Source of the DNA: Oscillospiraceae bacterium
Lineage (GTDB): Bacteria > Bacillota > Clostridia > Oscillospirales > Acutalibacteraceae
Reading direction: 5' to 3'
Length of the DNA: 33,859 nucleotides
Assembly (NCBI GenBank): GCA_015066325.1
Contig: SVOP01000008.1
Location: forward strand, 1-33,859
Both the position numbers and the translations under genes were made by a program. How positions within the stretch are numbered: the first letter of the stretch is position 1; each line of letters opens with the position of its first letter. Shown piece by piece: positions 1,808 to 17,672 of this stretch. The notes below the pieces were generated by a model that saw only the letters and a program-made list of their open reading frames with translations, was not told the origin of the DNA and did not search any database.

Positions 1808-1821
1808 AGTTTTATTGAAAT

Positions 1822-1861
1822 CACCCCAACAGATTTAACATCTGTCGGGGTGTTGCTTTTT
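1822..1861 (+). terminator. Intrinsic terminator of the GH3 gene
   Basis: CACCCCAACAGAT (1822-1834) pairs with ATCTGTCGGGGTG (1840-1852) around a 5-nt loop with one A-C mismatch, followed by TTGCTTTTTAT. It lies 15 bases after the GH3 stop codon. The opposite strand lacks a T-run, so it serves the plus strand. Confidence 0.88.
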
Positions 1862-1909
1862 ATATCATTATTTATATTGCTTGTTTTCAGATTTTCACAT
1901 TTTTGTAGC

Positions 1910-2608: not shown

Positions 2609-2647
2609 ATTGTGCACCCGACAAACCATACTTTACGGAAATTTCAA

Positions 2648-3949
2648 TCACTTTATTATACCCCATACCAAAGTCTTTTCACTTACGGGCTTTTCTGAAA
2701 AATCCAAAGCTGACAAAAACTTTTCTTTTGAAGAATTAAATGACTTTTCGTTACAGGAATAAAGTGTTGCAAGGATATCACCTTTCTCTACTTTATCACC
2801 TGTTTTTTTATTGAGCACAATTCCTGCACTCATATCGATTGTATCTTCTTTTGTTTCTCTGCCTGCACCGAGAATCACGGAAGCTATACCTATTTTTTCC
2901 GCATCCATTTTAGAAATATAGCCGTCATTCTCTGCTTTTATTTCATAAGTATGTTCTGCTTTCGGGAAAAGGTCGGTATTTTCAATCCATTTTGCATTTC
3001 CGCCTTGAGAAGAAATCCACTCTTTGAATTTTTCAAAGGCTTTGCCTGAAACAAGTACCTCTTCCGTTAATTTTCTTGCTTCATCAACGGAAATGTTTTT
3101 TGAAAGGGAAACGATTTCCGAAGAAAGAGTAAGGCAAACCTCTTTTAAATCCTCAGGACCGTTATTTTTGAGAACATCAATTGCTTCAATAACCTCAAGG
3201 GAATTGCCGATATTGTTACCCAAGGGTCTGTCCATATTTGTAATAACTGCCGCAGTATTTCTTCCACAGTTATTTCCGATTTTAACCATTGCCTCTGCTA
3301 ATTCCTTTGCATCCTCGGGAGTTTTCATAAATGCACCCGAACCACATTTAACATCGAGAACAATTGTATGTGACCCTGCGGCAAGCTTTTTGCTCATAAT
3401 GCTTGAAGCAATAAGTGAAAGATTATCAACAGTTGCGGTAACATCGCGAAGGGCATAAAGCTTTTTGTCGGCAGGGGTAAGATTCCCTGTTTGGCCAACA
3501 ACCGCAACACCGTTTTTCTCCACCTGACTGAAAAATTCGTCGGGTGAAAGAGCGGTATTAAAGCCCTCAATGGATTCAAGCTTATCAATAGTTCCGCCTG
3601 TGTGACCTAAGCCACGACCACTCATTTTCGCCATAACGCAACCGAGAGCTGAAACAATGGGCGCAACAATTAATGTTGTTTTATCACCAACTCCGCCCGT
3701 ACTGTGTTTATCAACAGTCAAATCGCCAAATCGGGATAAATCAACCGTATCTCCTGAATGTGCCATTGCCAGAGTCAAATCTGCAGTTTCTCTTTCATTC
3801 ATACCTTGAAAGAAAATCGCCATGCAAAGTGCAGACGCCTGATAATCGTGAATGCTGCCATCAACATAGCCTTTTATAAAAAACTCTATTTCCTCTTTTG
3901 AAAGAGCAAAGCCATCACGTTTCTTTTTAATAATATCGTAAATTCTCAT
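2648..3949 (-). CDS. pdp: Pyrimidine-nucleoside phosphorylase
   Basis: Cleaves uridine/thymidine/deoxyuridine with phosphate to give a free base and (deoxy)ribose 1-phosphate. The 433-residue length is typical of the family. Family signatures are clear: KHSTGGVGDKTTLIVAP (phosphate-binding loop), SGRGLGHTGGTIDKLES, the all-alpha N-terminal domain (residues 1-65), and the C-terminal barrel-sandwich domain with DGYISKMDAEKIG. The ATG at 3949 is preceded by GAGG seven bases upstream. It lies 171 bases after cdd in a minus-strand run deoD-deoB-cdd-pdp, and phosphopentomutase upstream consumes its sugar product. From sequence alone Pdp cannot be separated with certainty from thymidine phosphorylase (DeoA); Firmicute context favours the broad-specificity Pdp. 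Confidence 0.95.
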   Translation of the reverse strand: MRIYDIIKKKRDGFALSKEEIEFFIKGYVDGSIHDYQASALCMAIFFQGMNERETADLTLAMAHSGDTVDLSRFGDLTVDKHSTGGVGDKTTLIVAPIVSALGCVMAKMSGRGLGHTGGTIDKLESIEGFNTALSPDEFFSQVEKNGVAVVGQTGNLTPADKKLYALRDVTATVDNLSLIASSIMSKKLAAGSHTIVLDVKCGSGAFMKTPEDAKELAEAMVKIGNNCGRNTAAVITNMDRPLGNNIGNSLEVIEAIDVLKNNGPEDLKEVCLTLSSEIVSLSKNISVDEARKLTEEVLVSGKAFEKFKEWISSQGGNAKWIENTDLFPKAEHTYEIKAENDGYISKMDAEKIGIASVILGAGRETKEDTIDMSAGIVLNKKTGDKVEKGDILATLYSCNEKSFNSSKEKFLSALDFSEKPVSEKTLVWGIIK

Positions 3950-3965
3950 AATTACCTCGTTTTTA

Positions 3966-4112
3966 GATGCCAGTTACCAGATGCCGGATGCCAGACTTTA
4001 TGCATCAGCAACTGTTATCGTCTAAATGTTTACCACCCTACAATTAAGCCAAAAACAATTAGAAAAATAAAACTGTTATGACAATTCTGGTATCTGGGAT
4101 CTGGCATCTGGA
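3966..4112. repeat. Intergenic inverted repeat built of ~10-bp CCAGATGC-like units
   Basis: The gap between cdd and pdp starts and ends with short tandem units related to CCAGATGCC. The 19 bases at 3977-3995 (ccagatgccggatgccaga) match the reverse complement of 4093-4111 at 17 of 19 positions, enclosing ~97 bases. The two arms could form a long stem in the operon transcript. No coding sense is apparent. Its role (attenuator, processing site or decayed mobile repeat) is unknown. Confidence 0.7.
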
Positions 4113-4120
4113 ATCTTACA

Positions 4121-4528
4121 TTATTTCACATTCTCCGGACTGAATGACAACGGTAAAAGGTCCTTCAATGTAACAGTTTTATAACTATCTGCCGTTTCGC
4201 CTAAGAGGATTTCAAAATCATCCTTACAAAATTCTCTTAAAACCTGTCGGCAAACTCCGCAGGGAGCAAAAATGCCGTTGATTATTCCGCCTTTTCCGCC
4301 AACAACAGCGATTTTTGAAAACTCTTTTTCTCCCTCGGAAACCGCCTTGAAAATTGCAACTCTTTCCGCACAGATTGTCGGGCCAAAAGCGGCATTTTCA
4401 ATATTTGTTCCCGTAAAAGCCTTACCGTTTTTACAAAGAAGCGCCGCACCCACCTTGCAGTTTGAATAGGGTGAATATGAATTTTTCATAGCAGCTTTTG
4501 CTAATCCGTATAATTCTTTATCCGTCAT
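4121..4528 (-). CDS. cdd: Cytidine deaminase
   Basis: Hydrolytically deaminates cytidine and deoxycytidine to uridine and deoxyuridine, which the neighbouring pyrimidine phosphorylase can cleave. The 135-aa length matches the small tetrameric, zinc-dependent class. Catalytic zinc motifs are complete: CAERVA (Cys-Ala-Glu, with the proton-shuttling Glu) and PCGVCRQ (two Cys ligands). The N-terminal substrate segment YSPYSNCKVGAALL is also typical. The ATG at 4528 starts four bases after the deoB stop, with the ribosome site (AAAGAG) inside the deoB end, so the two are translationally coupled. Confidence 0.96.
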   Translation of the reverse strand: MTDKELYGLAKAAMKNSYSPYSNCKVGAALLCKNGKAFTGTNIENAAFGPTICAERVAIFKAVSEGEKEFSKIAVVGGKGGIINGIFAPCGVCRQVLREFCKDDFEILLGETADSYKTVTLKDLLPLSFSPENVK

Positions 4529-4532
4529 AAAA

Positions 4533-5657
4533 TCACTCTTTTATAAGATTTTCTTTAACTGTTTTTGAAATATAATCAAAACCATTTATTGTACCGAGAT
4601 TTTCGGGTTCAATATTTTCACCATAAAGCACAAAGGGCACACATTCTCTTGTGTGGTCTGTGCCTTTATAGAGAGGGTCGCAGCCGTGGTCGGCAGTGAT
4701 TATGAGAGTATCATCTGTTCTCATATTTTTAATAAAACCTCTCAACCATTTATCAAATTCTGCAACTGCTTCAGCATAGCCGTCAACATCTCTTCTGTGA
4801 CCATAAACCATATCGAAATCAACAAGATTTACAAAACAAAGTCCGTTGAACTCTTTATTCTGATACTCGGTTGTTTTATTCATTCCGTCCTGATTATTCT
4901 GAGTAAATACATACTCAGTAAGACCTTTACCTGCAAAAATATCGTGAATTTTACCAACACCGATAACATCAAAGCCTTTATTTTTTAAGGTATCAAGCAT
5001 TGTTTCTTTCGGTGGCTCAATGGAAAAATCGTGACGGTTGGCAGTTCTTTTAAACGGGTATTCAGCCTCAAAGGGTCTTGCGATAACTCTGCCAACACCA
5101 AACTCGCCTTTAAGAATTTCTCTTGCAATTGTGCAGTATTCATATAATTTTTCGGGTGGAACAATACTTTCGTGGGCGGCAATCTGAAAAACGCTATCCG
5201 CAGATGTATAAACAATTAAATCACCTGTTTTAAGATGTTCTTCACCAAAATCTTTAATAACTTCAGTTCCCGAATAGGTTTTGTTGCAGATAACTCCTCT
5301 GCCTGTTTTTTCAGAAAATTCTTTTAATATGATTTCGGGAAATCCGTTTGGGAAAGTGGGTAAGGGCTTTTCGGAAACCACCCCTGCAATTTCCCAATGA
5401 CCGATTGTGGTATCTTTACCCTTTGATTTTTCAGAAAGTCTTGCTACCTTGCTTTTAAGCTCACCGTCACCTAAAAAGGAAAGTCCGTCAATATTGGTAT
5501 AGCCCATTGAACGAAGCGTATCTATATTAAAATTTTTGGATTTTGAAATTGATTTTATGGTGTTTGCGCCATCATCCCCGAAGTCTTTTGCGTCAGGTGC
5601 ATCACCTATACCGCAACTGTCAAGAACGATGAGAAACACTCTTTTTATTTCATTCAT
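4533..5657 (-). CDS. deoB: Phosphopentomutase
   Basis: Interconverts ribose 1-phosphate/ribose 5-phosphate and the deoxyribose equivalents, linking nucleoside phosphorolysis to central metabolism. The protein (374 aa, slightly shorter than the ~390 aa common in Firmicutes) belongs to the alkaline-phosphatase superfamily. The metal/active-site N-terminus VLDSCGIGDAPDAKDFGD, the KDTTIGHWE segment and C-terminal ITADHGCDPLYKGTDHTRE supply the two-metal ligands. Its ATG (5657) overlaps the deoD stop by 8 bases (ATGAATGA), indicating coupled translation. The deoxyribose-phosphate aldolase deoC is not in this window. Confidence 0.96.
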   Translation of the reverse strand: MNEIKRVFLIVLDSCGIGDAPDAKDFGDDGANTIKSISKSKNFNIDTLRSMGYTNIDGLSFLGDGELKSKVARLSEKSKGKDTTIGHWEIAGVVSEKPLPTFPNGFPEIILKEFSEKTGRGVICNKTYSGTEVIKDFGEEHLKTGDLIVYTSADSVFQIAAHESIVPPEKLYEYCTIAREILKGEFGVGRVIARPFEAEYPFKRTANRHDFSIEPPKETMLDTLKNKGFDVIGVGKIHDIFAGKGLTEYVFTQNNQDGMNKTTEYQNKEFNGLCFVNLVDFDMVYGHRRDVDGYAEAVAEFDKWLRGFIKNMRTDDTLIITADHGCDPLYKGTDHTRECVPFVLYGENIEPENLGTINGFDYISKTVKENLIKE

Positions 5658-6393
5658 TCGCTAATCTTACCGCCGTTTCAAGTGAAAGCTTCATCATATC
5701 TGTAAATGAATTCTGTCTGTCATCAGAAGAAAGAGCTTCCCCTGTTACAAGGTGGTCGGAAACTGTAAGAATGGCGAGAGCTCTCTTACCGCTTCTTGCG
5801 GCATTCATATAAAGAGCAGCCGCTTCCATTTCCACACCTAAAACACCCATTTTTCTCCATAAATCCGCAGAGGTCATACCCTCGGGAACGTTCTCGTTAT
5901 CATTATAGAATGTATCGGAAGAAATAACATTACCAACAACAAAGGAAAGCTTCATTTCTTCTGCAATATCAGCGGAGGTGTTGAGAAGCTTATAATCTGC
6001 AATGGGGGCAAAGGTGCCGGGGAGATTAAAGGTATGAGCATAGTTTGAGTCGGTGCAAGCACCCTGAGCGATTATAATATCTCTTACTTTAACCTTTTCG
6101 CACATACCCCCTGCAGAACCAACACGAATGATATTTTCAACGCCGAAAAAGTTGAAGAGCTCATAACTATAAATCCCTATTGAGGGCATACCCATTCCCG
6201 AAGCCATAACGGAAACAGGAGTACCCTTATAAGTACCCGTATAACCGTGAATACCACGGACATTATTAACTAATTTTGCATCCTCGAGAAAGTTTTCTGC
6301 AATAAATTTTGCTCTCAAGGGGTCACCGGGCATAAGCACGGTTTTAGCAAAATCCTCAGGGACTGCATTAATGTGTGGAGTTGGATAATTCAT
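5650..6393 (-). CDS. deoD: Purine-nucleoside phosphorylase, DeoD (hexameric, trimer-of-dimers) type
   Basis: Phosphorolyses purine (deoxy)nucleosides to base plus sugar 1-phosphate. Hallmarks include TPHINA near the N-terminus, VLMPGDPLRAKFIA (phosphate/ribose site), GIHGYTGTYKG, ASGMGMPSIGIYSYEL, IRVGSAGG, GVEMEAAALY (ribose-binding Met-Glu) and TVSDHL with the catalytic Asp near the C-terminus. At 247 aa it is close to the usual ~235. The ATG at 6393 has an excellent AGGAG eight bases upstream. It is the first gene of the minus-strand salvage run deoD-deoB-cdd-pdp. A -10-like TACAAT lies upstream but no good -35, so the promoter is not called. Confidence 0.96.
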   Translation of the reverse strand: MNYPTPHINAVPEDFAKTVLMPGDPLRAKFIAENFLEDAKLVNNVRGIHGYTGTYKGTPVSVMASGMGMPSIGIYSYELFNFFGVENIIRVGSAGGMCEKVKVRDIIIAQGACTDSNYAHTFNLPGTFAPIADYKLLNTSADIAEEMKLSFVVGNVISSDTFYNDNENVPEGMTSADLWRKMGVLGVEMEAAALYMNAARSGKRALAILTVSDHLVTGEALSSDDRQNSFTDMMKLSLETAVRLANE

Positions 6394-6873
6394 AACTTTT
6401 TTCTCCTAAATAAATTTAATTGTATTTAATTCGGAATTAGGAATTGGCTTCGCAAGGTGTGAAGATAAGAGAATGAATTTGCGGTGTTTTGAACCTGCCT
6501 TCGAAGGCGGGGGGACCGTCTTAAAAAGAATAAAAGCTTTGTGTTTTGTACCAAGCGAGCCTATCGTAAAGGTAAAGAATAAAGTATGGCGGAACGGTGG
6601 GTGGTTCTTGACGCGACCTTAGGAGCGTCATTGAAGCGTAAGCTTCGACTGTAATAAACTAACTTTCATAATAACTTTATTACAGTTTCACCTTACGGTG
6701 AAATGTTGCTTTGCAACAAAGAACCTTTCGTCACGAAAAATCAAGAATTTTCGTGCCACCTTCCTTTGAAGGAAGGCTAAAACTACGGTAACTGTATTCA
6801 ACTAATTATATTTATGCTAAATCTCTGGCATCTTTTATAATTGCGACCACACCCGAAGCTTGCCACTTGCAAC
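6394..6873. repeat. 480-bp non-coding spacer made of consecutive palindromes
   Basis: No credible ORF exists here. From 6497 to 6776 at least seven short inverted repeats follow one another: GCCTTCGAAGGC (6497-6508), GACGC/GCGTC (6610-6629), GAAGC/GCTTC (6633-6646), CTGTAATAAA/TTTATTACAG (6649-6685), TTTCACC/GGTGAAA (6686-6703), GTTGC/GCAAC (6705-6717), CACGAAAA/TTTTCGTG (6732-6755) and CCTTCCTT/AAGGAAGG (6759-6776). The last three, read on the minus strand, resemble the 'GAAGGTGGCACG..CGTGACG..' palindromic intergenic repeat that I recall as abundant in gut Clostridia. That family resemblance is from memory and not checked by search. The flanks (6421-6450 and 6840-6873) are simple AT-rich sequence. 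It may also act as transcription barrier between the convergent-facing ends of the ABC and deo units. Confidence 0.72.
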
Positions 6874-8643
6874 TTAAACTTTATACATTTTGTACATTGT
6901 CGAATATAGTCCGCCTTGAGCAACAAGCTCTTCGTGGTTACCGCTTTCGGCTATGCCGTCCTTTGTAACAACAAGTATTTTATCTGCATTTTTAATTGTT
7001 GTAAGTCTGTGGGCAACGGTTATGGTTGTTCTGCCCGACGCCAGTCTTTCCAAGGACTGCTGAACAAGATATTCGCTTTCGTTATCGAGAGCACTTGTTG
7101 CCTCGTCAAGAATAAGTATTTTCGGATTTTTAAGGAATACTCGTGCAATGCTGATTCTCTGCTTCTGACCACCTGAAAGCTTAACACCTCTTTCACCCAC
7201 ATAGGTATCAAAGCCGTCCGGGAGCTTATCAATGAATTCTTCTGCACCTGCAAGGCGAGCAGCCTCTCTGATTTCCTCTTCAGTTGCACCGGGTCTGCCG
7301 TATTCAATGTTTTCTCTTACAGTACCGGAGAATAAATACACATCTTGTTGTACTACACCAATATTCTCACGAAGACTTTTAAGTGTTACATCGCGGATAT
7401 CTGTTCCGTCAATTTTTATACTACCCTCAGTAAGCTCATAAAAACGGGGTATAAGATTGCAAATTGTTGTTTTACCGCCACCTGAGGGACCAACAAGAGC
7501 ATAACTTTCGCCACTGCCTATACTGATATTTATATTATCAAGAATTTCATCCGTATCATCGGAATATTTAAAGGTCACGTTCTGAAAATCAATTGTACCC
7601 TCTTTAACAACAAGCTCTTTTGCGTTTTCTTTATCCTTAATGGTGGGCTCAGTATCCATAATTTCAGCAAAGCGCTCGATACCTGTCATACCTCTCTGGA
7701 ACTGCTCAGCAAAGTCTATAATTTTTCTGATAGAGGTAAGAAGAGTTGAGATATAAAGAAGATATGCAATGTAGTCCGCCGCACTGATTTTTCCGCCAAC
7801 AAGAGCAAAGGCACCTGCAACAACTATGAGAATATACATTACACCCTCAAAAACTCTGTTAATGGAGCTGTGAGAGCCCATATATTTGTAAACTCTGGAC
7901 TTTATTTCAAGGAATTTTTCGTTACCCTTTTTGAATTTCTTTTCTTCAATATTTTCGTTTGCAAAGGACTTTACAACGCGAACACCTAAAAGAGAATCCT
8001 CAATCTGTGAGTTTAATTCACCAACAATCACACGGGATTCACGGAAGCCGTCCTTCATACGCTTTCTGAAATATCTGAGACAAACCGCCATAACGGGAAT
8101 AACCGCAAAAAGAAGAAGAGTAAGAGGAAGATTTATAAAGCTTAAAATTGTGAATGACACAACAATTTTAATACCTGCAATAAAAAACTCTTCGGGGCAA
8201 TGGTGGGCAAACTCCGTAACATCAAATAAATCGCTTGTGATACGTGACATTATTGTTCCCACTTTTGTATTGTCATAATAGGAATAGGAAAGCTTCTGCA
8301 GATGCTCGAATAAATCCTTTCGCATCTTCGTTTCCATTTTTGTTCCCATAATATGACCAACTGATGCCATATAATAGTTTGCAACCGCATCAATTATTCT
8401 CATAACAAGATATGCACCACCCACACCAAGAATAATTGCAGGGGTCAGCTTGGATATATCTGTTGTTACCGCATCCGTTATAAAACGAACTATCAAAGGA
8501 AGTGCAAGCTCACAAACAGTTGTAAGCGAAGCACAGAACAAATCGAATATTAAGGTTTTTATATGTAATTTATAGTATGGCAAAAAGCGTTTTATAAGCT
8601 TACTCGTACCTGTTTTTCTCTCTTGATTTTTTCCTCTTTTCAT
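6874..8643 (-). CDS. ABC exporter half-transporter (fused permease and ATPase)
   Basis: A 589-aa type IV ABC exporter: an N-terminal six-helix membrane domain (about residues 25-320) then an ATP-binding domain. The ATPase has Walker A GPSGGGKTT (~380), signature LSGGQKQRISIAR (~490), Walker B ILILDEATSALD (~515) and H-loop VAHRLTTI (~543). Such half-transporters form homo- or heterodimers exporting lipids, drugs or peptides; no C39 peptidase domain is present, so it is not a peptide-processing exporter. No partner half-transporter gene is adjacent, which suggests a homodimer. The ATG at 8643 has only a weak GA-rich ribosome site. It lies downstream of the histidine kinase but is separated from it by a terminator. 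Substrate cannot be inferred. Confidence 0.93.
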   Translation of the reverse strand: MKRGKNQERKTGTSKLIKRFLPYYKLHIKTLIFDLFCASLTTVCELALPLIVRFITDAVTTDISKLTPAIILGVGGAYLVMRIIDAVANYYMASVGHIMGTKMETKMRKDLFEHLQKLSYSYYDNTKVGTIMSRITSDLFDVTEFAHHCPEEFFIAGIKIVVSFTILSFINLPLTLLLFAVIPVMAVCLRYFRKRMKDGFRESRVIVGELNSQIEDSLLGVRVVKSFANENIEEKKFKKGNEKFLEIKSRVYKYMGSHSSINRVFEGVMYILIVVAGAFALVGGKISAADYIAYLLYISTLLTSIRKIIDFAEQFQRGMTGIERFAEIMDTEPTIKDKENAKELVVKEGTIDFQNVTFKYSDDTDEILDNINISIGSGESYALVGPSGGGKTTICNLIPRFYELTEGSIKIDGTDIRDVTLKSLRENIGVVQQDVYLFSGTVRENIEYGRPGATEEEIREAARLAGAEEFIDKLPDGFDTYVGERGVKLSGGQKQRISIARVFLKNPKILILDEATSALDNESEYLVQQSLERLASGRTTITVAHRLTTIKNADKILVVTKDGIAESGNHEELVAQGGLYSTMYKMYKV

Positions 8644-8711: not shown

Positions 8712-8741
8712 AAAAAAGAGGTATAGCAAAAACTATACCTC
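8705..8741 (-). terminator. Intrinsic terminator after the histidine kinase gene
   Basis: On the minus strand GAGGTATAG pairs with CTATACCTC (8718-8741) around a 6-nt loop and is followed by an eight-T run. It starts nine bases after the kinase stop codon and separates the two-component operon from the ABC exporter gene. Confidence 0.88.
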
Positions 8742-8749
8742 AAATTAAT

Positions 8750-10075
8750 TTATATATTCTCCATTGTAACTGTGGCAGTTGCTTTGGAATACTTTTTCTC
8801 TTCCGGCAAAGCCTCTTTTGTAAGTGTATATTTACCATTGTATTTTTTTGCAATTTCTTTGATTATGCCTGTTCCATTTCCGCGGTCAGTGCCTGTTTTA
8901 ACATCTTTTGTATTGCATATGTTTGATACTGTGATTTTTACGTTATCTACATCAGCAAAAATTTCAATTTCGCAAACTTTTGATTTATCACAGTTTTCAA
9001 GTGCTTCAATTGAATTATCAAGGAGATTGAAAAGAATACGCGATAAATCATAATCACTTGTTTTTATAACAAAAGTTTCGTTAACAGTCGCTTTGATTTC
9101 TATACCGGAATCAGTAGCTTTTTTGTTTTTTATATTAAGAATAGTGTTAATTGTATCGTTATTACTGAAAGGTAATTTGGATACTGATGACAAATCATCA
9201 ATGGTTTCGTTTATAACTGTAGTTGCTTTTTCTGTTTGTTCTATTTCAAGAAAGCCCTTAACTGTTGATAAAAGGTTTATGTAATCGTGCTTTGTTTTTC
9301 TTAATTTTGCTCGCTCTTCTTTTGTGGTCTGAATCAAAGCATAGTCCAATTCATTTTGTAAAAGCTTTTGCTGATAAAGTCTGTTGTTTTCTTCAACGTT
9401 CTGGAAATGGTCGATAATGAAAATAAAGGCAACATCAAAAATTACACATGCACCCAAAAGAATGCATTGAATGTTGGTGAGTGCATTTTCAGTTGCTGAC
9501 ATAAATCCAAATACTATATGAGTCAGGGGTGTAATGAGGAAGAAAAGGTATTTGGCGTTTGCTTTATCTGATTTTTTGAAAATCAGTTTATATGCTCTGA
9601 GTATGAAAACAAAAGCATAGCTAAGAACAATTGTTATAAGTAACTCGAAAAGGAATGTCACAAGGTAATCCTGATTTATGGTAGAAAAATCTGATTGTTC
9701 TTCTATTGTTTGCCCATACACATTAGTTCGAATTGCAGTTAAAATTGCACCACCGATAGCTGAATTTAAAAGCTCAAGGCAAAGTGTAACAACATAAACA
9801 AATATTTTTTTCAATACCTTTCCCTCATAGAAAAGGAACACTGTAAGACTCATGAGTCCATAATAACTAAACACACTTAGCATGATATTAGCTTCTGTGC
9901 GCTCAATTCCCCAAGTTGTAAGCGAGGTTGCAATTTTTAAAAGAATCATAAAAACCATTGCAAAAGGAAATTTGCTTTTAGGCTTTAAAAGCTCTTTCTG
10001 GCAGTTATAAAAAGCGAAGCAACGGGCAAAGGTTCTCAGAAAAAACCAATGGAATAAAGATGTATCAATAATCAT
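8750..10075 (-). CDS. Sensor histidine kinase, GHKL (AgrC-like, HPK10) class
   Basis: A 441-aa membrane sensor with about six hydrophobic segments in the first ~220 residues, then a helical dimerisation/phosphoacceptor region KTKHDYINLLS (His ~263) and a GHKL ATPase domain. N box is LFNLLDNSIEAL (~352) and G box DRGNGTGI (~398). This organisation is that of AgrC/VirS-type kinases that often sense peptides and pair with LytTR regulators. The ATG at 10075 has AAGGGG eight bases upstream. It starts 12 bases after the response-regulator stop, in one operon. No agrB or agrD-like gene is nearby, so the ligand is unknown. Confidence 0.92.
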   Translation of the reverse strand: MIIDTSLFHWFFLRTFARCFAFYNCQKELLKPKSKFPFAMVFMILLKIATSLTTWGIERTEANIMLSVFSYYGLMSLTVFLFYEGKVLKKIFVYVVTLCLELLNSAIGGAILTAIRTNVYGQTIEEQSDFSTINQDYLVTFLFELLITIVLSYAFVFILRAYKLIFKKSDKANAKYLFFLITPLTHIVFGFMSATENALTNIQCILLGACVIFDVAFIFIIDHFQNVEENNRLYQQKLLQNELDYALIQTTKEERAKLRKTKHDYINLLSTVKGFLEIEQTEKATTVINETIDDLSSVSKLPFSNNDTINTILNIKNKKATDSGIEIKATVNETFVIKTSDYDLSRILFNLLDNSIEALENCDKSKVCEIEIFADVDNVKITVSNICNTKDVKTGTDRGNGTGIIKEIAKKYNGKYTLTKEALPEEKKYSKATATVTMENI

Positions 10076-10087
10076 TTCAAAAACCCC

Positions 10088-10789
10088 TTAGAGCATTTTT
10101 ATATAGTTTGAATATTCTTCAATAATCGAATTATATTTCTTTGGCGGAATAGGTACAGCTTTACCATTTTTCATTGTGAAGAAATTTCTGTAAAACCCTG
10201 TTATATGGTTCATATTAACAACATAACTTTTATGGCATTTCAGGAAATTAACAGGAAGATTTTTGGCAAAATCCTTCATGGTGGAATAAAGATTGATTTC
10301 CCTATCAATGAGATGAAGTAAAATATTGTTGTTAAAGCTTTCTATGTAAACTATTTCATCTGTGCAAATGGCGTGATTTTTATTTCCGACACTGACTACA
10401 ATCACATTTTTCTTGTTTGTGATATTTTGCAATGCTTTTTGTAAAGCACAAATTAAGGTTTTATCGTCAATGTGGCTTTTAAGTAAAAGAAAACAGGCAT
10501 CTGTTTTTGATAGATTATAAATCTCTCCCGGGAAGCCTGTCATCGCAATAATCTGAGGCTTATCTTTTAATTTGTTTTCTGTTAACCAATCAAGAGAATT
10601 ACCTTCTGCAAGCATAACATCAAGAAAGCATATATCAATTTTATCAGAGTCATAACCTTGCAGTTCTTTAAGGTTGTTAAACGCAACTATTTTGTTCTTG
10701 AGACCTATTTCATTAGCCACTCTTTGTATCTTGGCTTCTAATATTTCTAAAAAAGCTTTATCATCATCACAAATTGCTATTGTTACCAT
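10088..10789 (-). CDS. LytTR-family response regulator
   Basis: A 233-aa protein with an N-terminal receiver (AICDDDKAF acidic pocket; phosphoacceptor Asp in DICFLDVML near residue 55) and a C-terminal LytTR DNA-binding domain (~135-233, with EIVYIESFNNNILLH and FLKCHKSYVVNMNHI). LytTR regulators bind pairs of 9-bp direct repeats and commonly control surface, bacteriocin or competence genes. It is the first gene of the operon with the GHKL kinase. Its ATG has AGGTGGG upstream. It is divergent from the 10986-16336 gene cluster, which makes that cluster a candidate target (inference). Confidence 0.94.
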   Translation of the reverse strand: MVTIAICDDDKAFLEILEAKIQRVANEIGLKNKIVAFNNLKELQGYDSDKIDICFLDVMLAEGNSLDWLTENKLKDKPQIIAMTGFPGEIYNLSKTDACFLLLKSHIDDKTLICALQKALQNITNKKNVIVVSVGNKNHAICTDEIVYIESFNNNILLHLIDREINLYSTMKDFAKNLPVNFLKCHKSYVVNMNHITGFYRNFFTMKNGKAVPIPPKKYNSIIEEYSNYIKML

Positions 10790-10825
10790 TAACCCACCTC
10801 AATAAGCACATAAAAATCCTTTTAC

Positions 10826-10854
10826 ATTATACAACAAAATTCGACAGTTGAAAA
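10826..10854 (-). promoter_or_regulatory. Sigma-A promoter of the two-component operon
   Basis: On the minus strand a perfect TATAAT (10826-10831) sits 17 bases from TTTTCA (10849-10854), 36 bases before the response-regulator ATG. The -10 is strong, the -35 partial (4 of 6). Confidence 0.5.
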
Positions 10855-10895
10855 GATTTTTTGCCACGCGGTTTAAATCCGTAACCACGAACGTA

Positions 10896-10924
10896 TTGAA
10901 AAGTCGTTCTTATGTTTGTATATT
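10896..10924 (+). promoter_or_regulatory. Possible sigma-A promoter of the 10986 gene cluster
   Basis: TTGAAA (10896-10901) and TATATT (10919-10924) are spaced by exactly 17 bases, 61 bases before the lipoprotein ATG. The -35 lies inside a small inverted repeat GAACG..CGTTC that could be an operator. A second TATAAT at 10934-10939 lacks a matching -35. Confidence 0.42.
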
Positions 10925-10985
10925 GAATTTACATATAATTACATTATATGTGCAAAAAATTGTTTTAATATTCAGGAGGGTTTGT

Positions 10986-12245
10986 ATGAAAAAAAGAAAA
11001 GCAACCAAATTTTTGTCGTTGCTCTGTATTTTGTGCATTATTACTAACTGTTTCTGCGGTTGTTCATCTACACAAAGCATTGTTACTGCTATTGAAACCG
11101 GTGATTATGAAACAGCCGACGAAATATACTTAAAAAAAGTAGAAAACGGCTCTGACGTTTCAGATTTAAGATATGCCGTAGAAGAATTCCTTTGGCAAAA
11201 AGTTGAGGAATATAACGAAAATACTATTTCGGAAAACGAAACTCAAACATTTTTTACAACTGTTGCTTCTTGTTCTTTTTACGATGCTTTCGATATATAT
11301 CCTATAGAAAACGAATTCACATCACTTAGGGAGTCTAAAGGTTCTTTTTCAGAAGCAGAACGCCTCTTTAAACAACAAGAGTATTTTGAAGCCGTTCGAT
11401 TATATGAACAGGTTTCCTCCATTGATACAAACTATGATACATCTCAAAATAAAATAGACGAAATAAAAAAAATTTTATTGTCGAAAGCTAACGATTTTAT
11501 AGATGATGATAATTATTCATCTGGAATTAATTTGTTGAGAGAGTGTAGCGATTTAAATTTCGGAGAAGAATTTGATTCTGCTTATGAAAAATATGTACAA
11601 GAGTATATTAATAAAGCAATTGCATCAGCGAAAGAAGTTTTTAATAATAAAAAAAACTATAAAGGTGCTATTAAAAAATTAAAAGCAGCATTAAAAGACA
11701 TTGAAAATGCTGACGATAATATTTTTAATCCTATTTACGATGAAATTGATAAATACTTAGAATACGAACCAAAACCTCTTTCGTCATTAGAGCCAACTCA
11801 GCAAGCAAATTATATTGAGTTGGATGAATGGGGTTCCACAGATGTAAACGAAAAAGAATACGAAGGCACCATTTTTTCTCCCTGTGGTGGTACATTGCTT
11901 TCCCAAACAGCTCAAAGTGAAGATGAAGCCTATGTGTCATATTACCTGAATGCCAAATACTCAACATTTACAGGCACAATATACCGTCCGTATAGTACTC
12001 TTTCTTGCCCTGACAGTTGGACAGGTAAAACTGTATTTAAAGTTTATGGAGATGGCGTGCTTCTCTATGAGGGTCCACAAATAACCCAGAAAACATATGA
12101 CCCTGTTGCATTTGAAATAGATGTTTCAGGGGTTCGTGAACTAAAAATCGTTATAATGGGGGTTTGGTCACAAAGCGGCGGTTGGCCTGGTCAATATGAC
12201 CGTAATCCAAAACTTTGTGCAGCAAACCTAACACTTGTAAAATAA
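10986..12245 (+). CDS. Predicted lipoprotein: TPR-like helical region plus C-terminal NPCBM-like domain
   Basis: The ORF track begins at 10848, but the ATG at 10986 follows GGAGGG at good distance and opens a typical lipoprotein signal (charged KKRKATK, hydrophobic FLSLLCILCII, then CFCGCSS), so the mature protein should be surface-tethered. Residues ~35-280 are helical and repeat-like (GDYETADEIY, YFEAVRLYEQV, NYKGAIKKLKAAL), resembling TPR units. The last ~110 residues (TWTGKTVFKVYGDGVLLYEG.. VSGVRELKIVI) look like an NPCBM/NEW2 carbohydrate-binding fold; the lipobox is imperfect (F-C-G-C). It is the first gene of a plus-strand set reaching 16336. Likely a cell-envelope glycan-binding protein; exact function unknown. 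Confidence 0.75.
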   Translation: MKKRKATKFLSLLCILCIITNCFCGCSSTQSIVTAIETGDYETADEIYLKKVENGSDVSDLRYAVEEFLWQKVEEYNENTISENETQTFFTTVASCSFYDAFDIYPIENEFTSLRESKGSFSEAERLFKQQEYFEAVRLYEQVSSIDTNYDTSQNKIDEIKKILLSKANDFIDDDNYSSGINLLRECSDLNFGEEFDSAYEKYVQEYINKAIASAKEVFNNKKNYKGAIKKLKAALKDIENADDNIFNPIYDEIDKYLEYEPKPLSSLEPTQQANYIELDEWGSTDVNEKEYEGTIFSPCGGTLLSQTAQSEDEAYVSYYLNAKYSTFTGTIYRPYSTLSCPDSWTGKTVFKVYGDGVLLYEGPQITQKTYDPVAFEIDVSGVRELKIVIMGVWSQSGGWPGQYDRNPKLCAANLTLVK

Positions 12246-12263
12246 ATTCAAGGAGGTTTCGAA

Positions 12264-12554
12264 ATGAAAAAAAAGATAATTCCGCTTATTATTGTATCGG
12301 TAATCATCGTAGGCGTAATATTATTTACAATAGCCAATAACAATGCTTCTATCAGCTTATTAGAAACGAACAACCCTTGTGAATACTGTTCAAACGAAAC
12401 AGCTTTACGAATCACAATGAGCGATGGTTCCAATTTCTATGTTTGCAGAAAGTGTACAAAAAATTGTTTTTGGTGCGATAACGAAGCAACAACACACTAC
12501 GAAAACCTCTTAGGTATGCCTATGTTTGTGTGTAGTGAATGTTATCCCAATTAA
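12264..12554 (+). CDS. Small membrane-anchored protein with two tandem Cys4 zinc-ribbon-like repeats
   Basis: Only 96 aa, starting at an ATG with AGGAGG nine bases upstream, 18 bases after the lipoprotein stop. It opens with KKK and one hydrophobic helix (IIPLIIVSVIIVGVILFTI). The rest holds two copies of C-x2-C-x18-C-x2-C: CEYC..CRKC and CFWC..CSEC. Both copies continue after the first pair with NE-T/A and end with a hydrophobic F-V/Y-V-C, so they look duplicated. Each set probably binds one zinc. No known family is recognised. Whether the Cys domain faces outside or inside is unclear; the K-rich N-terminus with a following helix suggests outside or signal-anchor topology. Confidence 0.72.
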   Translation: MKKKIIPLIIVSVIIVGVILFTIANNNASISLLETNNPCEYCSNETALRITMSDGSNFYVCRKCTKNCFWCDNEATTHYENLLGMPMFVCSECYPN

Positions 12555-12651
12555 AAACAGATAGTTATTAGAACATAATCAAATTAAAAGATTATTACAG
12601 ATAAATAGTGACTAATTAAACATATGAACTTTTAGGAACGGTGATATTATT

Positions 12652-13698
12652 ATGAAGATATTTCAGGCAATTTGTTTCGGAATAGGTTGGGTTGTCGGAA
12701 AGCTTTTTTCATTGCTTGTTGATTTGTTTAAGTGGGTTTTCAGAAAAATTGGCGAAGCGATAAAAAACAAAAATTCTGAATCATCTGTAAAGTATACCAA
12801 TCATTCGTATGACAACAGTAATAATACAGATACAGTAGACCAAAACGAAGAATTCAGTATCGTTGAATTTTTTGTAGATAAATACAAAGAAATGGAAACA
12901 AACGGAAAACAAATAAATTGGAATATTGTTGAACAAACATCAAAAGGCGATTATCCATATCCTTGTGCGACAGAAGATGAGTTGGAAATGATGGATAACG
13001 GCAAAAAACCTTTGAAGACGGGTTTTGTGCCCGCTATAGTGAATGCATTGTTTACATATGGATTTGATGATGGCACCGGTTATTATCTCGTTTATCCTGA
13101 TAAAGATAAAGTTGATTTTTGGGTAGGGAATATCACTGCAAGGGCAACCAATGGCGATCGTTGGTGTCAAGCACTCTTAGTAAGCGCATCAGAAAAACGA
13201 AATCATAGTGATTTGTGGTGTACAACAGAGGAAAGCTCTTTGTGGAATGACCTATATAGGAAAAACCTTATTCAAGATGCTGAAAATGGCGACCCGGAAG
13301 CTATGCTTGCTGTAGCAGATATGAAATTGGGAAGAATGGGTAACGACAGAAGAGAACGTGGACCATTTTATCAAGCAGCCGGAGAGGCTGGTCTGGGAGA
13401 TGCATATTTCTTATTAGCAGAAGAATACCGAATGGCTGTGTATGAAGAAAAAGGGAGGCCGTTTGCTTGGGGTGATGATGATTGCTGCGGTTATTATATG
13501 ATGATAGCCGAAGCCGCAAAAACCAACGTTGGACATACTATCGGATGGTGTAAAAACGAAATTGCAGAACTCTTCGTAAATGGTGAATGCGGGTTTATAA
13601 AAAATCTCGATTCAGCAAAATTATTTTACGAATCAGCACTTAAATGCGGGTATGAAAAAGCTGCCGAGGGCTTAAAAAGACTTGAGAATACGCAATAA
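12652..13698 (+). CDS. Membrane-associated Sel1-like repeat protein
   Basis: A 348-aa protein starting with a hydrophobic, aromatic segment (IFQAICFGIGWVVGKLFSLLV) followed by a basic stretch, a low-complexity linker (~40-65), and a globular middle with many Trp/Tyr (GYYLVYPDKDKVDFWVG). The C-terminal ~130 residues contain Sel1/TPR-like units: AENGDPEAMLAVADMKLG, AGEAGLGDAYFLLAEEY and DSAKLFYESALKCGYEKAAEGL. Sel1 repeats serve as protein-interaction scaffolds. The ATG follows AGGAACGGTGAT. A 97-base gap precedes it with no terminator, so it could be cotranscribed with its neighbours. The specific role is unknown. Confidence 0.7.
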   Translation: MKIFQAICFGIGWVVGKLFSLLVDLFKWVFRKIGEAIKNKNSESSVKYTNHSYDNSNNTDTVDQNEEFSIVEFFVDKYKEMETNGKQINWNIVEQTSKGDYPYPCATEDELEMMDNGKKPLKTGFVPAIVNALFTYGFDDGTGYYLVYPDKDKVDFWVGNITARATNGDRWCQALLVSASEKRNHSDLWCTTEESSLWNDLYRKNLIQDAENGDPEAMLAVADMKLGRMGNDRRERGPFYQAAGEAGLGDAYFLLAEEYRMAVYEEKGRPFAWGDDDCCGYYMMIAEAAKTNVGHTIGWCKNEIAELFVNGECGFIKNLDSAKLFYESALKCGYEKAAEGLKRLENTQ

Positions 13699-13716
13699 TT
13701 TTTCGAGGTGATAAAA

Positions 13717-14184
13717 ATGCCTATATGCAAAAACTGTAAATACTACGATGATAAAACGAAAAGCGGCTATAAAGGTTACTGCACTACTTACAAAGAATAT
13801 GTTGATCCTGACTCAATATCCTGGGGCTGTACTCGTTATGAAGAAGGCACAGGAACATCTTCGGGTGGTTGTTATTTAACCTCTGCATGTGTGGAATCAA
13901 AAAATCTTCCCGATAACTGCCACGAATTAACTGTGTTAAGACATTTCAGAGATACATACCTGATTTCTCAGAAAAATGGAAGAGAAGAAATACAACACTA
14001 TTATGCTACCGCACCTGCAATTGTAGAAAAAATTAATGCTTCATCGAATTCTACAGATACTTGGAACGAAGTTTATGAAAATATGATTTTGCCTTGTGTA
14101 AAATATATTGAAGCCAATGAACTTGAAAAAGCGCATCAGCTTTACAAAAGCTATAGCTTGAAATTAGAAAAAACATACATGTGA
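13717..14184 (+). CDS. Small Cys-rich protein with CFI-box-like C-terminal domain
   Basis: The ORF-track start is a GTG at 13708 that is really part of the ribosome site GAGGTG; the ATG at 13717 (MPICKNCKYYDD) is the likely start, giving 155 aa. The N-terminus has a Cys cluster (CKNCKYY.., GYCTTY, SWGC) probably binding metal. The second half, GCYLTSACVESKNLPDNCHELTVLRHFRDTYL, matches a domain I recall as the 'CFI-box'-like terminal domain found in many Firmicute proteins of unknown function, usually behind zinc-ribbon segments. It follows the Sel1 gene by 18 bases. Biochemical role is not known. Confidence 0.7.
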   Translation: MPICKNCKYYDDKTKSGYKGYCTTYKEYVDPDSISWGCTRYEEGTGTSSGGCYLTSACVESKNLPDNCHELTVLRHFRDTYLISQKNGREEIQHYYATAPAIVEKINASSNSTDTWNEVYENMILPCVKYIEANELEKAHQLYKSYSLKLEKTYM

Positions 14185-14215
14185 ATGTAAAATTTACTAA
14201 TTGGAAGTGATAAGA

Positions 14216-16336
14216 TTGATTTGCAAAAACTGCAAAAAAGAAATGCCAGATAACGCCAACTTCTGTAGAGTTTGCGGTTTTTTAAACCAAAACAAGTACA
14301 CAAACAAAACTTTATCCAATATTGGCGATAAGACTGTTACACCCTCTGTAACTCCCACTCCCGTAATTACTCCCCCCGTAATTGCTACTCCCCCAAAAAC
14401 CGATGACACTATGGAATTGCCTTCCGTTCCTATCGAAAGCCCGGATATTGTTGCTGATGAAGAAGAATTACAACCAGATAATCAAAATAAACCTTTCTCT
14501 TTCAACAAAAAGCCGCTGATAATATGTGCAATTGCAATACTTCTTTTTATTATAGGAGTTATTGCAGTTGATTCATCCAAACAGAATAATTTAAAAAATG
14601 ATGACATATACACAGAATACGGCGAAGTAGTCTTTGACGAATCTGATTATTTTGAAGAAGAGTGGGATGAGGAAACAGCTATAGAAACAGAAGAACAATC
14701 AGAGGATGGCGACGTAGAAGTGTTCTCAATGCCTGACGTGGTAGGCGAAAATTACGAGAATGCGGAAAGTATATTAAAGTCAAAAGGGCTTACAGTGTAT
14801 ATTGAATATAACCAGACAGATGATTTTCCGGCGAATAGTGTTATTGGCCAGAGTATAAGTGCAGGTTCTGGCGTAGCTACAGATGATAGTGTTTCATTAA
14901 TTGTTGCTGTAAAACAAGACACAATCAAATCTGTAAATGTTGTCGGAAAAAATAAAAATGTTGCTATTTCTTCTCTTGAAGATCAAGGTCTAAATGTTAT
15001 TGTATTTGATGTTTTTGATTCAGATATTGCAGAGGGTAGGATTATCAGTCAGCATCCGGAGGGCGGTACTGAGCAAATTCCAGGTTCAAATGTACATCTG
15101 TATGTAAGTAAGGGCCCCGATACTGTCAAAATGCCTAATGTTGTTAATAGACATATTGATGATGCGGAAGAAATTTTAACTTCTAAAGGTTTTTTTGTTA
15201 ATGTAGAATATAAAAGGACTGATAATGTTAAAGAAAATCACGTTATCAAGCAAAGTTATAAAAAAGGTGAAAAAGTTGATCGTGGTGCTTGCGTTACTCT
15301 TACAGTTGCTTCAGGTAGAGAGACCATTGACGTTGCTAATGTTGTTGGTAAAATAAGCTCTTCTGCAAACGATATACTTTCAGAGCAAGGTTTCGATATA
15401 GAAATTGCTGAAAAATACGATTCAAATGTAGAAAAAGGATATATAATCAGTCAAAAGCCCGCAGCAAATACAGCCCAGTTACCGGGTTCAACGATCACCA
15501 TTTATGTAAGCAAAGGAAAACAACCGGTTATTGTTTATTTCAATGCAAATGGGGGCAATACAACATCTTCTCAAAAAACGGTATATTTAACTGATATATA
15601 TGGAAGTTTACCAACACCCACAAGAACGGGCTATACATTTAATGGTTGGTACACCGCTACTTCAGATGGCAAAAAAATAACATCATCAACAACAGTTTCA
15701 AGTTCATCTAATCATACTTTATATGCTGTTTGGACAATTAATTCACCAAGTGATTGGGTTCTTGAATCTGAGGTTCCTGCAGGAGCAGAGATATTATCAA
15801 CAAGATACATATACGATAAAACTACCAGAGAAACCACAACGTCCTCAAAATCTTCTCTTTCCGGTTGGACAAGATACGATAAAAAGACAGAAACCATATA
15901 TAAAAATGTAACTTATTACAATTATGTGGTTTATGGACTTTATCATAATGGCGACTATACATATGCTTTTTCGAGCAGTAGAGACGATATTATCAGACAT
16001 TGTAAAAATAGTTTCAACTACGATCCTTATGCAGTTTGTTATAAAATTACCTATAGCACAACTTCCAAATTAACGAATGGTGTTAAGGGAAATTATAGCG
16101 GATGTAAAGCCACTAGTCTTGATGGTAAAAAATCTGCAACTATATCTATAAAAAATACAGTTTTATTTGAAAATGGTACCAGTACCAAGAAAGTTGCTAG
16201 TGGTACAAAAACCACCTATTATTATGAAAGATATCTAACAGAAACAAGTCTTATAAGCACAACAGATCCTACATCATCAGCTTCTAACATTACTATTTCA
16301 AATGTTAGAAAGCAAGTGAAATATCGACCCAAATAA
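14216..16336 (+). CDS. Zinc-ribbon / single-TM / four-PASTA / InlB-repeat surface protein
   Basis: The ORF track begins at a TTG (14201) that overlaps the ribosome site; TTG at 14216 (MICKNCKKEMPDNANFC) follows GGAAGTGAT by five bases and is the likely start (706 aa). Order: zinc ribbon CKNC..CRVC (1-21), Pro/Thr-rich linker, TM helix LIICAIAILLFIIGVIAV (~100-118), acidic linker, four PASTA domains (~172-435), one Listeria-Bacteroides InlB B-repeat (FNANGG..YAVWT, ~440-508), and a Thr/Tyr-rich C-terminal ~195 aa region of unknown fold. PASTA domains usually bind peptidoglycan or lipid II on Ser/Thr kinases or PBPs; here neither kinase nor transpeptidase is present. The cytoplasmic zinc ribbon and external PASTA array suggest an envelope-sensing or scaffold role (inference). 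Confidence 0.78.
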   Translation: MICKNCKKEMPDNANFCRVCGFLNQNKYTNKTLSNIGDKTVTPSVTPTPVITPPVIATPPKTDDTMELPSVPIESPDIVADEEELQPDNQNKPFSFNKKPLIICAIAILLFIIGVIAVDSSKQNNLKNDDIYTEYGEVVFDESDYFEEEWDEETAIETEEQSEDGDVEVFSMPDVVGENYENAESILKSKGLTVYIEYNQTDDFPANSVIGQSISAGSGVATDDSVSLIVAVKQDTIKSVNVVGKNKNVAISSLEDQGLNVIVFDVFDSDIAEGRIISQHPEGGTEQIPGSNVHLYVSKGPDTVKMPNVVNRHIDDAEEILTSKGFFVNVEYKRTDNVKENHVIKQSYKKGEKVDRGACVTLTVASGRETIDVANVVGKISSSANDILSEQGFDIEIAEKYDSNVEKGYIISQKPAANTAQLPGSTITIYVSKGKQPVIVYFNANGGNTTSSQKTVYLTDIYGSLPTPTRTGYTFNGWYTATSDGKKITSSTTVSSSSNHTLYAVWTINSPSDWVLESEVPAGAEILSTRYIYDKTTRETTTSSKSSLSGWTRYDKKTETIYKNVTYYNYVVYGLYHNGDYTYAFSSSRDDIIRHCKNSFNYDPYAVCYKITYSTTSKLTNGVKGNYSGCKATSLDGKKSATISIKNTVLFENGTSTKKVASGTKTTYYYERYLTETSLISTTDPTSSASNITISNVRKQVKYRPK

Positions 16337-16342
16337 AAAACG

Positions 16343-16381
16343 AATCCGCTATCAAGTTTCAACTTGATAGCGGATTTGCTC
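16343..16381. terminator. Bidirectional terminator between the PASTA gene and the aminotransferase gene
   Basis: A perfect 16-bp stem AATCCGCTATCAAGTT / AACTTGATAGCGGATT (16343-16376) has only a 2-nt spacer, so a few top pairs must open for the loop. On the minus strand it is followed by CGTTTTTTATTT, a good T-run; the plus-strand tail is TGCTCTTT. It sits between two convergent genes. Confidence 0.88.
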
Positions 16382-16406
16382 TTTATAAAAATTTGTGTAT
16401 TTAATT

Positions 16407-17666
16407 TTACATTTTCTCAACAACTGTTTTAACAGCATTCACGAAGATTTCTAAGCCTTTTTTGAGAGTTTCGTCATCTGCTAAAAGACAGGGCATAAGC
16501 TTAACAACGTCGTTATTACGTCCTGCTCTTTCAACGATAAGACCATTATCAAAGCATTCTCTTACAATTGCTCTTGAAACTGCATCGGGTTTGACTTTAT
16601 TACAGTCAACACCCCACATAAAGCCGATACCGCGAACATCGAATTTATCGTTGATTTCTTTAACCTTGCCGAGGTATTCCTTGATAATTTCGCCCTTGCG
16701 CTGAACCTCTTTTTCAACATTGTCTCTGAGCATAATTTCAAGGCCTGCTTTAGCGGCAACAATTGAAAGCTGACTGCCTCTGAAGGTGCCGTTATGCTCA
16801 CCGGGCTTCCACACGTCAAGCTCGGGCTTAAAGAGAACAAGAGCGAAAGGCATACCATAGCCACCGATAGATTTTGAAAGGGTAACAATATCGGGAATGA
16901 TACCTGCTCTTTCAAAGGAGAAATATGTTCCTGTTCTTGCAGAGCCAACCTGAATATCATCGCAAACAAGAAGAATATCGTTTCTTGTGCAGAATTCGCG
17001 AAGACCTTTAAGAAATTCAACACTGAAAACGTGAATACCGCCGTCTGCCTGAACGGGCTCAATGAAAACTGCTGCAGGCTTTGAAATACCTGAATGGTCG
17101 TCATCAAGAAGAGTCTGCATATATTCTATAACATCAAGCTCGGGGAACATATAGGGTGTGGGAATATGCGTTACGTCAGTAAGCACAACTCCTGCGCCCT
17201 CTCTGGAATCTCTGTCGGTAGTCATTGAAAGAGAGCCGAGGGTCATTCCGTGGAACGCACCCATAAATGCGAAAATATTATTTCTCTTTTTAACCTTTCT
17301 TGCAAGCTTGAGAGCCGCTTCAACTGCGTTTGTTCCTGTTGGACCGGGGAACTGAATTTTATAATCGAAGCCTCTGGGCTCAAGAATATTTTTCTCGAAA
17401 TACTCAATGAAATCTCTTTTTGCAGATGTGAACATATCAAGAGAATGAATTATTCCGTCGCTCTCAAGATAGCTGATAATCTGCTCCTTGATATAGTCAT
17501 TGTTATGACCATAGTTCAAAGCACCTGCACCGCAGAAAAAGTCAATATATTCCTTACCGTCCTCAGCAGTAATAATTGAACCCTTTGCTTTAGTGAAAAC
17601 TGCAGGGAAATTACGGCAATAGGAACGGACCTCTGATTCGTATTTGTCAAAAACAGATGTATTCAT
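16407..17666 (-). CDS. Class-III PLP aminotransferase, diaminobutyrate--2-oxoglutarate transaminase (EctB-like)
   Basis: A fold-type I PLP enzyme closely following the EctB pattern: FDKYESEVRSYCRNFPAVFTKA, DFFCGAGALNYGHNN, PGPTGTNAVEAALKLARK, AFHGMTLGSLSMT, CDDIQVGSARTG (PLP Asp), and the Schiff-base Lys in TLSKSIGGYG, then GEHNGTFRG. EctB converts aspartate semialdehyde plus glutamate into L-2,4-diaminobutyrate. Neither ectA nor ectC is next to it, so ectoine synthesis is not supported; the product might feed a peptide, siderophore or polyamine route. The ORF track starts at 17672; ATG 17666 (MNTSVF) has better spacing from AAGGA. Monocistronic, with a shared terminator downstream. Gene symbol left blank because the pathway is uncertain. 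Confidence 0.85.
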   Translation of the reverse strand: MNTSVFDKYESEVRSYCRNFPAVFTKAKGSIITAEDGKEYIDFFCGAGALNYGHNNDYIKEQIISYLESDGIIHSLDMFTSAKRDFIEYFEKNILEPRGFDYKIQFPGPTGTNAVEAALKLARKVKKRNNIFAFMGAFHGMTLGSLSMTTDRDSREGAGVVLTDVTHIPTPYMFPELDVIEYMQTLLDDDHSGISKPAAVFIEPVQADGGIHVFSVEFLKGLREFCTRNDILLVCDDIQVGSARTGTYFSFERAGIIPDIVTLSKSIGGYGMPFALVLFKPELDVWKPGEHNGTFRGSQLSIVAAKAGLEIMLRDNVEKEVQRKGEIIKEYLGKVKEINDKFDVRGIGFMWGVDCNKVKPDAVSRAIVRECFDNGLIVERAGRNNDVVKLMPCLLADDETLKKGLEIFVNAVKTVVEKM

Positions 17667-17672
17667 AAGCAT

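Follow-up and report, generated by a model that had tools for sequence, protein, structure and literature searches.

A predicted operator links a GHKL/LytTR two-component system to a divergent five-gene cluster in an Oscillospiraceae bacterium

Contig SVOP01000008.1 of an Oscillospiraceae bacterium of the gut carries a cluster of five genes, here called A to E, that lies back to back with the genes of a two-component system. A first-pass annotation had placed the cluster at 10986-16336 and proposed it as an envelope-sensing or glycan-binding module and as a candidate for an undescribed system. Do these five genes form a conserved system of their own, and do they belong with the divergent regulator? 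The contig was analyzed whole (33,859 nucleotides, hereafter the window); it is part of a 1.88-Mb draft genome, G000, that is 76.5% complete. We consider it likely from sequence comparison that an accessory island holds a GHKL/LytTR pair and, back to back with it, a local target operon under a predicted operator, the products of which would act at the envelope. The system is a GHKL/LytTR regulator of a known kind with a notable target set, and the finding is a predicted operator-linked regulon. The features of the locus are listed below.

8733-16395, no strand: accessory block; in congeners G008 and G006 its two flanking genes, for an aminotransferase and an ABC transporter, adjoin without it (synteny and spacer alignment)
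8718-8741, minus strand: terminator after the kinase gene, GAGGTATAG-6-CTATACCTC plus a T run (inverted repeat, 9/9 complementary)
8750-10075, minus strand: multi-transmembrane (TM) GHKL sensor histidine kinase, 441 amino acids (HATPase_c_5 7e-11, SPOB_a 6e-10)
10088-10789, minus strand: LytTR response regulator, 233 amino acids (LytTR 2.7e-17, receiver 1.9e-4)
10826-10854, minus strand: putative regulator promoter, TTTTCA, 17 nt, TATAAT (TATAAT conserved in orthologous spacers)
10862-10891, minus strand: predicted LytTR operator, direct repeats TTCGTGGTT (10883-10891) and CGCGTGGCA (10862-10870)
10896-10924, plus strand: cluster promoter, -35 TTGAAA (10896-10901) and -10 TATATT (10919-10924)
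10986-12245, plus strand: gene A, 419 amino acids, lipoprotein-like signal, TPR-like helical array and C-terminal NPCBM/CBM51
12264-12554, plus strand: gene B, one N-terminal TM segment and two Cys4 motifs (8 Cys in 96 amino acids)
12652-13698, plus strand: gene C, 348 amino acids, an orphan with a hydrophobic/amphipathic N-terminus and a helical repeat-like region
13717-14184, plus strand: gene D, 155 amino acids, N-terminal Cys cluster and CFI-box-CTERM domain
14216-16336, plus strand: gene E, 706 amino acids, zinc ribbon, TM segment (~94-112), four PASTA repeats, a List_Bact/InlB repeat and a C-terminal unknown fold
16341-16378, no strand: strong bidirectional terminator closing the cluster, 17-pair stem

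The predicted operator and the cluster promoter

By its sequence features the divergent pair is a GHKL/LytTR two-component system. The kinase phospho-acceptor H263, in RKTKHDY (RKxKHDY), is invariant in an alignment of related kinases; the regulator joins a LytTR domain to a receiver whose family match is below cut-off and whose residues D57, T84 and K104 are invariant among orthologues; and a paired direct-repeat operator is predicted upstream. Searches of the family, the order and the genome contigs, with alignment, yielded 18 orthologous regulator loci at 34-47% identity (paralogues, <30%), all from uncultured Clostridia, whose records carry the labels Clostridia, Oscillospiraceae, Lachnospiraceae or Eubacterium. 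One and sometimes two GHKL kinases usually follow the orthologous regulators, with the active residues of receiver and kinase kept.

The predicted operator consists of two 9-bp direct repeats (about KYCRKGGTA) spaced 21 bp start to start, and is present in the window and in 14 of the 18 orthologous loci, about 97-207 bp upstream of the regulator start. With a leave-one-out weight matrix it scores 22-62 at those 14 loci, against a maximum of about 6 in simulated regions, and 33.4 in the window, where the next best position scores -4.2. In a scan of 3.1 million positions, scores >10 fell only at the regulator loci and at one other site, a regulon-type promoter. An AgrA-like ACAGTT motif picked out by eye near 10844 was dropped, its second copy lying at 24 bp and the motif not being conserved, and was replaced by the CGTGG repeats.

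On the cluster side, a -35 element starts 4 bp past the operator and points into the divergent genes, followed after 16-18 nt by a -10 element. All 20 distinct pattern-matching operators had a -35/-10 pair at this fixed register scoring at least 8/12, compared with 22.5% of control ATTG sites; two further pattern matches (L178, L179) are coding-sequence coincidences and stand outside the 20. A TTGNNN -35 occurs at the exact spacing in at least 11 of 15 regulator loci, with L173, L175 and L178 fitting less well. The geometry in the window matches that published for LytTR-family operators, which have 12 bp between repeats and lie 4-11 bp from the -35 (PMC6193735). Thus, comparison shows that the cluster promoter carries what is predicted to be a family-specific LytTR-type operator.

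Operator and gene content also go together. Counting surface, zinc-ribbon or type VII secretion system (T7SS) genes as cargo, both operator and cargo were found at 14 loci (the window included), the operator only at one, cargo only at none and neither at four (Fisher P=0.0013, in a test that counts loci as independent, which they are not fully). These data bear on the reading that the five genes are unrelated hypotheticals gathered by chance in a low-GC hypervariable spot, with the regulator not controlling them. Gene C has no relatives in 59 related genomes, the relatives of D sit dispersed in unrelated contexts, and cargo beside the regulator turns over between sister loci, as would be expected of such a gathering. 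The same observations led us to reject the exact five-gene set as a conserved system, and the conserved linkage of A to E implied by the first-pass annotation failed the neighborhood check. However, an operator-promoter register that points into the cluster, the operator-cargo association, and the occurrence at orthologous locus L049 of homologous sets of domains (TPR-NPCBM, zinc ribbon, Cys4) make a chance gathering very improbable. A local target of a LytTR surface regulon is, on this comparison, most likely what the cluster represents.

In the mechanism we propose, a signal would lead the kinase to phosphorylate the regulator, as in other members of the family, and the regulator would bind the two direct repeats at 10862-10891 and activate the operon promoter, whose -35 is 4 bp away. 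Operator binding and operon activation have strong comparative-genomic support as predictions. The regulator probably also activates its own promoter. AgrC-AgrA, VirS-VirR and ComD-ComE share with this system a multi-TM GHKL kinase, a receiver-LytTR regulator, a paired direct-repeat operator (predicted here) just upstream of the -35 and probable autoregulation. LytTR Regulatory Systems, which pair a LytTR regulator with a membrane inhibitor and have no receiver domain and no histidine kinase (PMC6193735), likewise place direct-repeat operators near the -35, with a 12-bp interval between the repeats; the receiver and kinase in the window set it apart from that class.

The likeness to AgrC-AgrA raises the reading that the island is a peptide quorum-sensing (Agr/Com-like) unit, in which the kinase would respond to a secreted peptide and the five genes would be the surface response to cell density. 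A GHKL kinase with a LytTR regulator is the classic arrangement for peptide quorum sensing, as in VirSR of C. perfringens (PMC2688746). The island differs from the AgrC-AgrA type in holding no linked pheromone or autoinducer peptide gene, no AgrB-like or other processing gene and no peptidase-exporter or export gene, with almost no intergenic room, and in having its own repeat (about KYCRKGGTA); its predicted targets, in uncultured gut Clostridia, are operons for surface proteins and secretion. No peptide, processing or exporter gene was seen beside the listed orthologues either, and the nearby ABC transporter is part of the conserved flank, outside the island. We regard a quorum-sensing unit as unlikely.

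One accessory block

Congeners G008 and G006 have an aminotransferase gene 93-95% identical to that at 16407-17672 of the window; only a short spacer separates it from the ABC-transporter gene (6874-8643 in the window), and everything from about 8733 to 16395 is missing. The island is bounded by terminators at both ends. Against its closest orthologues within the genus (G001, G015) the regulator reaches only 44-46% identity. The neighboring aminotransferase shows 80-95% across 12 congeners, the pattern of a flanking core gene, which the regulator does not follow. Gain of the island in the window lineage is the simplest account. Comparison thus shows the regulator and the cluster as a single predicted accessory unit, which bears out the proposed link between the cluster and the LytTR system: one block, a conserved operator abutting the cluster -35, and orthologous regulators beside envelope or secretion genes. 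The genes lie where the annotation had placed them, but the unit is larger, taking in the divergent two-component genes from about 8733.

Within the block, the open reading frames (ORFs) of A to E were confirmed as five in succession on the plus strand, with gaps of 18 (A-B), 97 (B-C), about 18 (C-D) and 31 bp (D-E), and form a single cluster closed by the terminator after E. The A/T-rich bias noted for the cluster is real (GC 0.34-0.38, against 0.37-0.45 outside the block), but the third-position GC (GC3) of the block overlaps that of some flanking genes, and the kinase and regulator genes share the bias with a GC lower still (0.31-0.32), which places the composition boundary at the edge of the two-component genes. 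On the far side of the ABC transporter, nucleoside-salvage genes (PNP, phosphopentomutase-like, cytidine deaminase and PYNP) and a CAAX protease gene (1910-6393) occur in identical order in G006.

The five products

Domain calls made from the sequence held for A, B, D and E and failed for C. Gene A is, on Pfam and fold, a putative NPCBM/CBM51 glycan-binding module: its NPCBM match (E=1.5e-8) reaches 35.2 bits against a cut-off of 23.9, its model (mean pLDDT 79.8) combines a helical repeat array with a beta-sandwich, and its top Foldseek structural matches are CBM51 modules (2vmh, TMt 0.63). The TPR match is sub-threshold and the N-terminus is signal- or lipobox-like. The first protein of the L049 array resembles gene B in its C-terminal part. 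Gene C had been called a Sel1 protein, a label that we reject since no family model recognizes the protein: there was no Pfam or NCBIfam match and no Sel1 match at E<=1, and a single-sequence AF2 model gave a pLDDT of 42. A sequence search against solved structures found no relative for gene A or gene C.

Gene D matches the CFI-box model NF041770 at E=3.5e-15 (55.6 bits, curated cut-off 40); scanning the genome contigs with it gave no match, and a literature search on the CFI-box found no paper. Elsewhere (L052, L053, L063, L064) the CFI-box is C-terminal on P-loop GTPase-like proteins, whose genes adjoin a second such gene, and on a zinc-ribbon protein, which makes a role of the domain in the cytosol likelier than one at the surface.

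Gene E matches PASTA (7.3e-53) and Flg_new, the List_Bact/InlB repeat (7.6e-16), and its zinc ribbon is just below cut-off (Zn_Ribbon_1, 7e-5). Zinc-ribbon motif sites are scarce per genome; G000 has two real proteins with them, one being gene E. Like the PASTA Ser/Thr kinases (PrkC/PknB/Stk1), E combines a TM helix with four PASTA repeats, and it matches the kinase ectodomains 3py9 and 3m9g at about 3e-19. Unlike them, it has a zinc ribbon in the cytoplasmic position with no Pkinase match, and an InlB repeat and unknown domain added outside; the match to NF033483 (180 bits, cut-off 450) covers the TM/PASTA part only. Gene E can be read as the ectodomain of a PASTA kinase joined to a zinc ribbon instead of the kinase domain.

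From these features, A would be a lipoprotein-like TPR/CBM51 glycan binder at the envelope, E a receptor-like zinc ribbon-TM-PASTA protein binding glycan or peptidoglycan, and B a membrane-anchored double-Cys4 protein, with C and D as presumed accessory products. The suggested sensing or glycan-binding role fits the CBM51/NPCBM and PASTA ectodomains, although not as a conserved five-gene module; and whereas four of the five products had been thought membrane- or surface-linked, this is supported for A, B and E, is weak and uncertain for C and has no support for D.

Regulator relatives and the wider regulon

The genes divergent from the orthologous regulators are as follows.

L169 (G001): four zinc-ribbon proteins, including ZR-TM-TPR-NPCBM and ZR-TM-Cys4 (ZR, zinc ribbon), then leucine-rich repeat (LRR) surface proteins
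L170 (G555): DUF6382-FHA, ZR-TM-TPR-NPCBM, ZR, ZR-DUF805, PP2C and Ser/Thr kinase; then giant surface protein, YukD-like, EssC-like and WXG100-like genes
L172: T7SSe regulatory genes as in L170
L167: EssC with YukD- and WXG100-like genes, directly divergent
L164: TseJ-like DUF6382-FHA protein
L171: TM-TPR-NPCBM protein and GLUG protein
L165: TM-anchored proteins
L173, L175, L179: zinc-ribbon proteins
L166, L174, L176: LRR surface proteins
L168, L177, L180, L181: no surface, zinc-ribbon or T7SS genes

The ZR-TM-TPR-NPCBM protein of L169 aligns end to end with gene A, which reads as the ectodomain of such proteins on a lipoprotein-like anchor instead, and the ZR-TM-Cys4 protein resembles gene B. 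At L178 the operator is present and the divergent space is without genes, and its sister locus L179 has zinc-ribbon genes. A tree of 19 regulators placed the window weakly, on a long branch, and was used solely for the differing cargo of sister regulators. Beside the regulator, L164 (1374-5045) and L171 (5983-9572) have a common four-gene module of an HHH-motif TM protein, a radical-SAM-like protein, an AAA-ATPase-like protein and a 154-amino-acid protein. At L079 (G450:C2:21834-22535), the regulator orthologue has an in-frame TGA and the operator match is weak and displaced, which suggests decay of the locus.

L170 is a T7SSe-type locus as described in PMC11217815, and such adjacency invites the reading that a T7SSe/T7SSj-like locus lost its ATPase and WXG100 genes and left the cluster as its remnant or satellite, with the regulator and receptor-like proteins kept. 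The regulator family directly adjoins T7SS loci (EssC-YukD-WXG100 at L167, T7SSe genes at L170 and L172), T7SSj kinases carry TPR ectodomains (PMC11217815), and the gene A ectodomain aligns with the zinc ribbon-kinase-TM-TPR-NPCBM protein of a T7SS locus, L058. The gene for that protein (L058/L091, G407:C153) lies beside genes for PP2C, EssC and WXG100, and downstream are five zinc-ribbon-TM genes in tandem; the locus looks like one of T7SSj type. However, the window showed no EssC/TsxC ATPase, WXG100 or YukD-like gene, and G000, 76.5% complete, yielded no EssC-like ATPase, for want of which T7SS membership of the window was rejected. Most arrays beside the regulator are without T7SS genes, the T7SSe locus of congener G020 shows neither such a regulator nor an array, and the operator also precedes LRR proteins, pili and acyltransferases. 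A T7SS remnant is thus quite unlikely.

The local-operon reading is extended by degenerate operator copies elsewhere in regulator-bearing genomes: 12 good copies in G692 (its own included), four additional in G525, and one additional each in G001, G015 and G1009. Reversed-pattern controls gave 0-1 matches per genome. Genomes without the regulator (G008, G006, G013, G020) gave 0-5, with repeats unlike each other or the consensus, and these look like chance matches. For many of the good copies the first target gene begins 63-311 bp downstream; at L219 and L225 the nearest called ORF is farther off, and two of the G692 sites fall at the ends of contigs. Most of the extra copies precede surface, pilus, T7SSe-like or acyltransferase genes.

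L217, L222, L225, L228-L230: BspA LRR/dockerin surface proteins
L218, L227: giant secreted protein and small secreted proteins
L220 (G692:C7), operator upstream of 1009-7545: Tad/Flp pilus operon with TadZ-like protein, T2SSE ATPase, T2SSF and Flp1-like pilin
L226: GLUG lipoprotein
L231 (G1009:C7): FHA-PP2C-kinase and giant surface gene in T7SSe-like order
L161 (G015:C281:7423-7457): operator near-copy whose -10 is perfect, before two acyltransferase and several AMP-binding ligase genes, possibly for envelope lipid modification

No EssC-like ATPase was found in the G1009 genome, despite the T7SSe-like order at L231. T7SSg and T7SSh loci are known to adjoin Tad genes (PMC11217815). Related regulators would thus act through the same operator on BspA-LRR/dockerin proteins, zinc-ribbon/TM arrays, Tad pili and T7SSe-type genes.

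Several points weigh against our reading of the island. The loci compared are few and not independent by phylogeny, a second promoter could lie within the 97-bp B-C gap, and the island may have been lost from G008 and G006 instead of gained in the window lineage. The lipobox of A (FCGC) is atypical, C lacks homologues in the 59 genomes, and D has no surface signal and looks cytosolic. In G000, at 76.5% completeness, the window operator is the only convincing one, and the wider regulon is unproven there.

In the literature found, no paper links a LytTR system to T7SSe or Tad pili, and the papers searched describe no regulator for T7SSe, a recently named type, or for Tad pili or BspA-type surface proteins in these uncultured gut Clostridia. 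The proposal of an undescribed system thus survives in altered form: the operator-linked regulon is apparently undescribed, but its regulator is of a known kind and the five genes are not a conserved system. We are evenly divided on whether this LytTR subfamily is a master switch for surface composition in uncultured gut Clostridia, acting through one operator, with the window as an accessory version that has cargo of its own. If so, its targets would include T7SSe-type secretion, Tad pili, BspA-LRR/dockerin proteins, envelope acyltransferases and arrays of receptor-like proteins with a zinc ribbon instead of the receptor kinase domain, and the data suggest that surface display, pilus and type VII secretion genes can be switched together. 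The zinc-ribbon/TM proteins with kinase-type ectodomains (PASTA, TPR-CBM51) are candidate envelope sensors or scaffolds. An operator that can be read from sequence predicts the regulator and its targets over many genomes, and with it a group of hypothetical genes becomes a regulon that can be tested.

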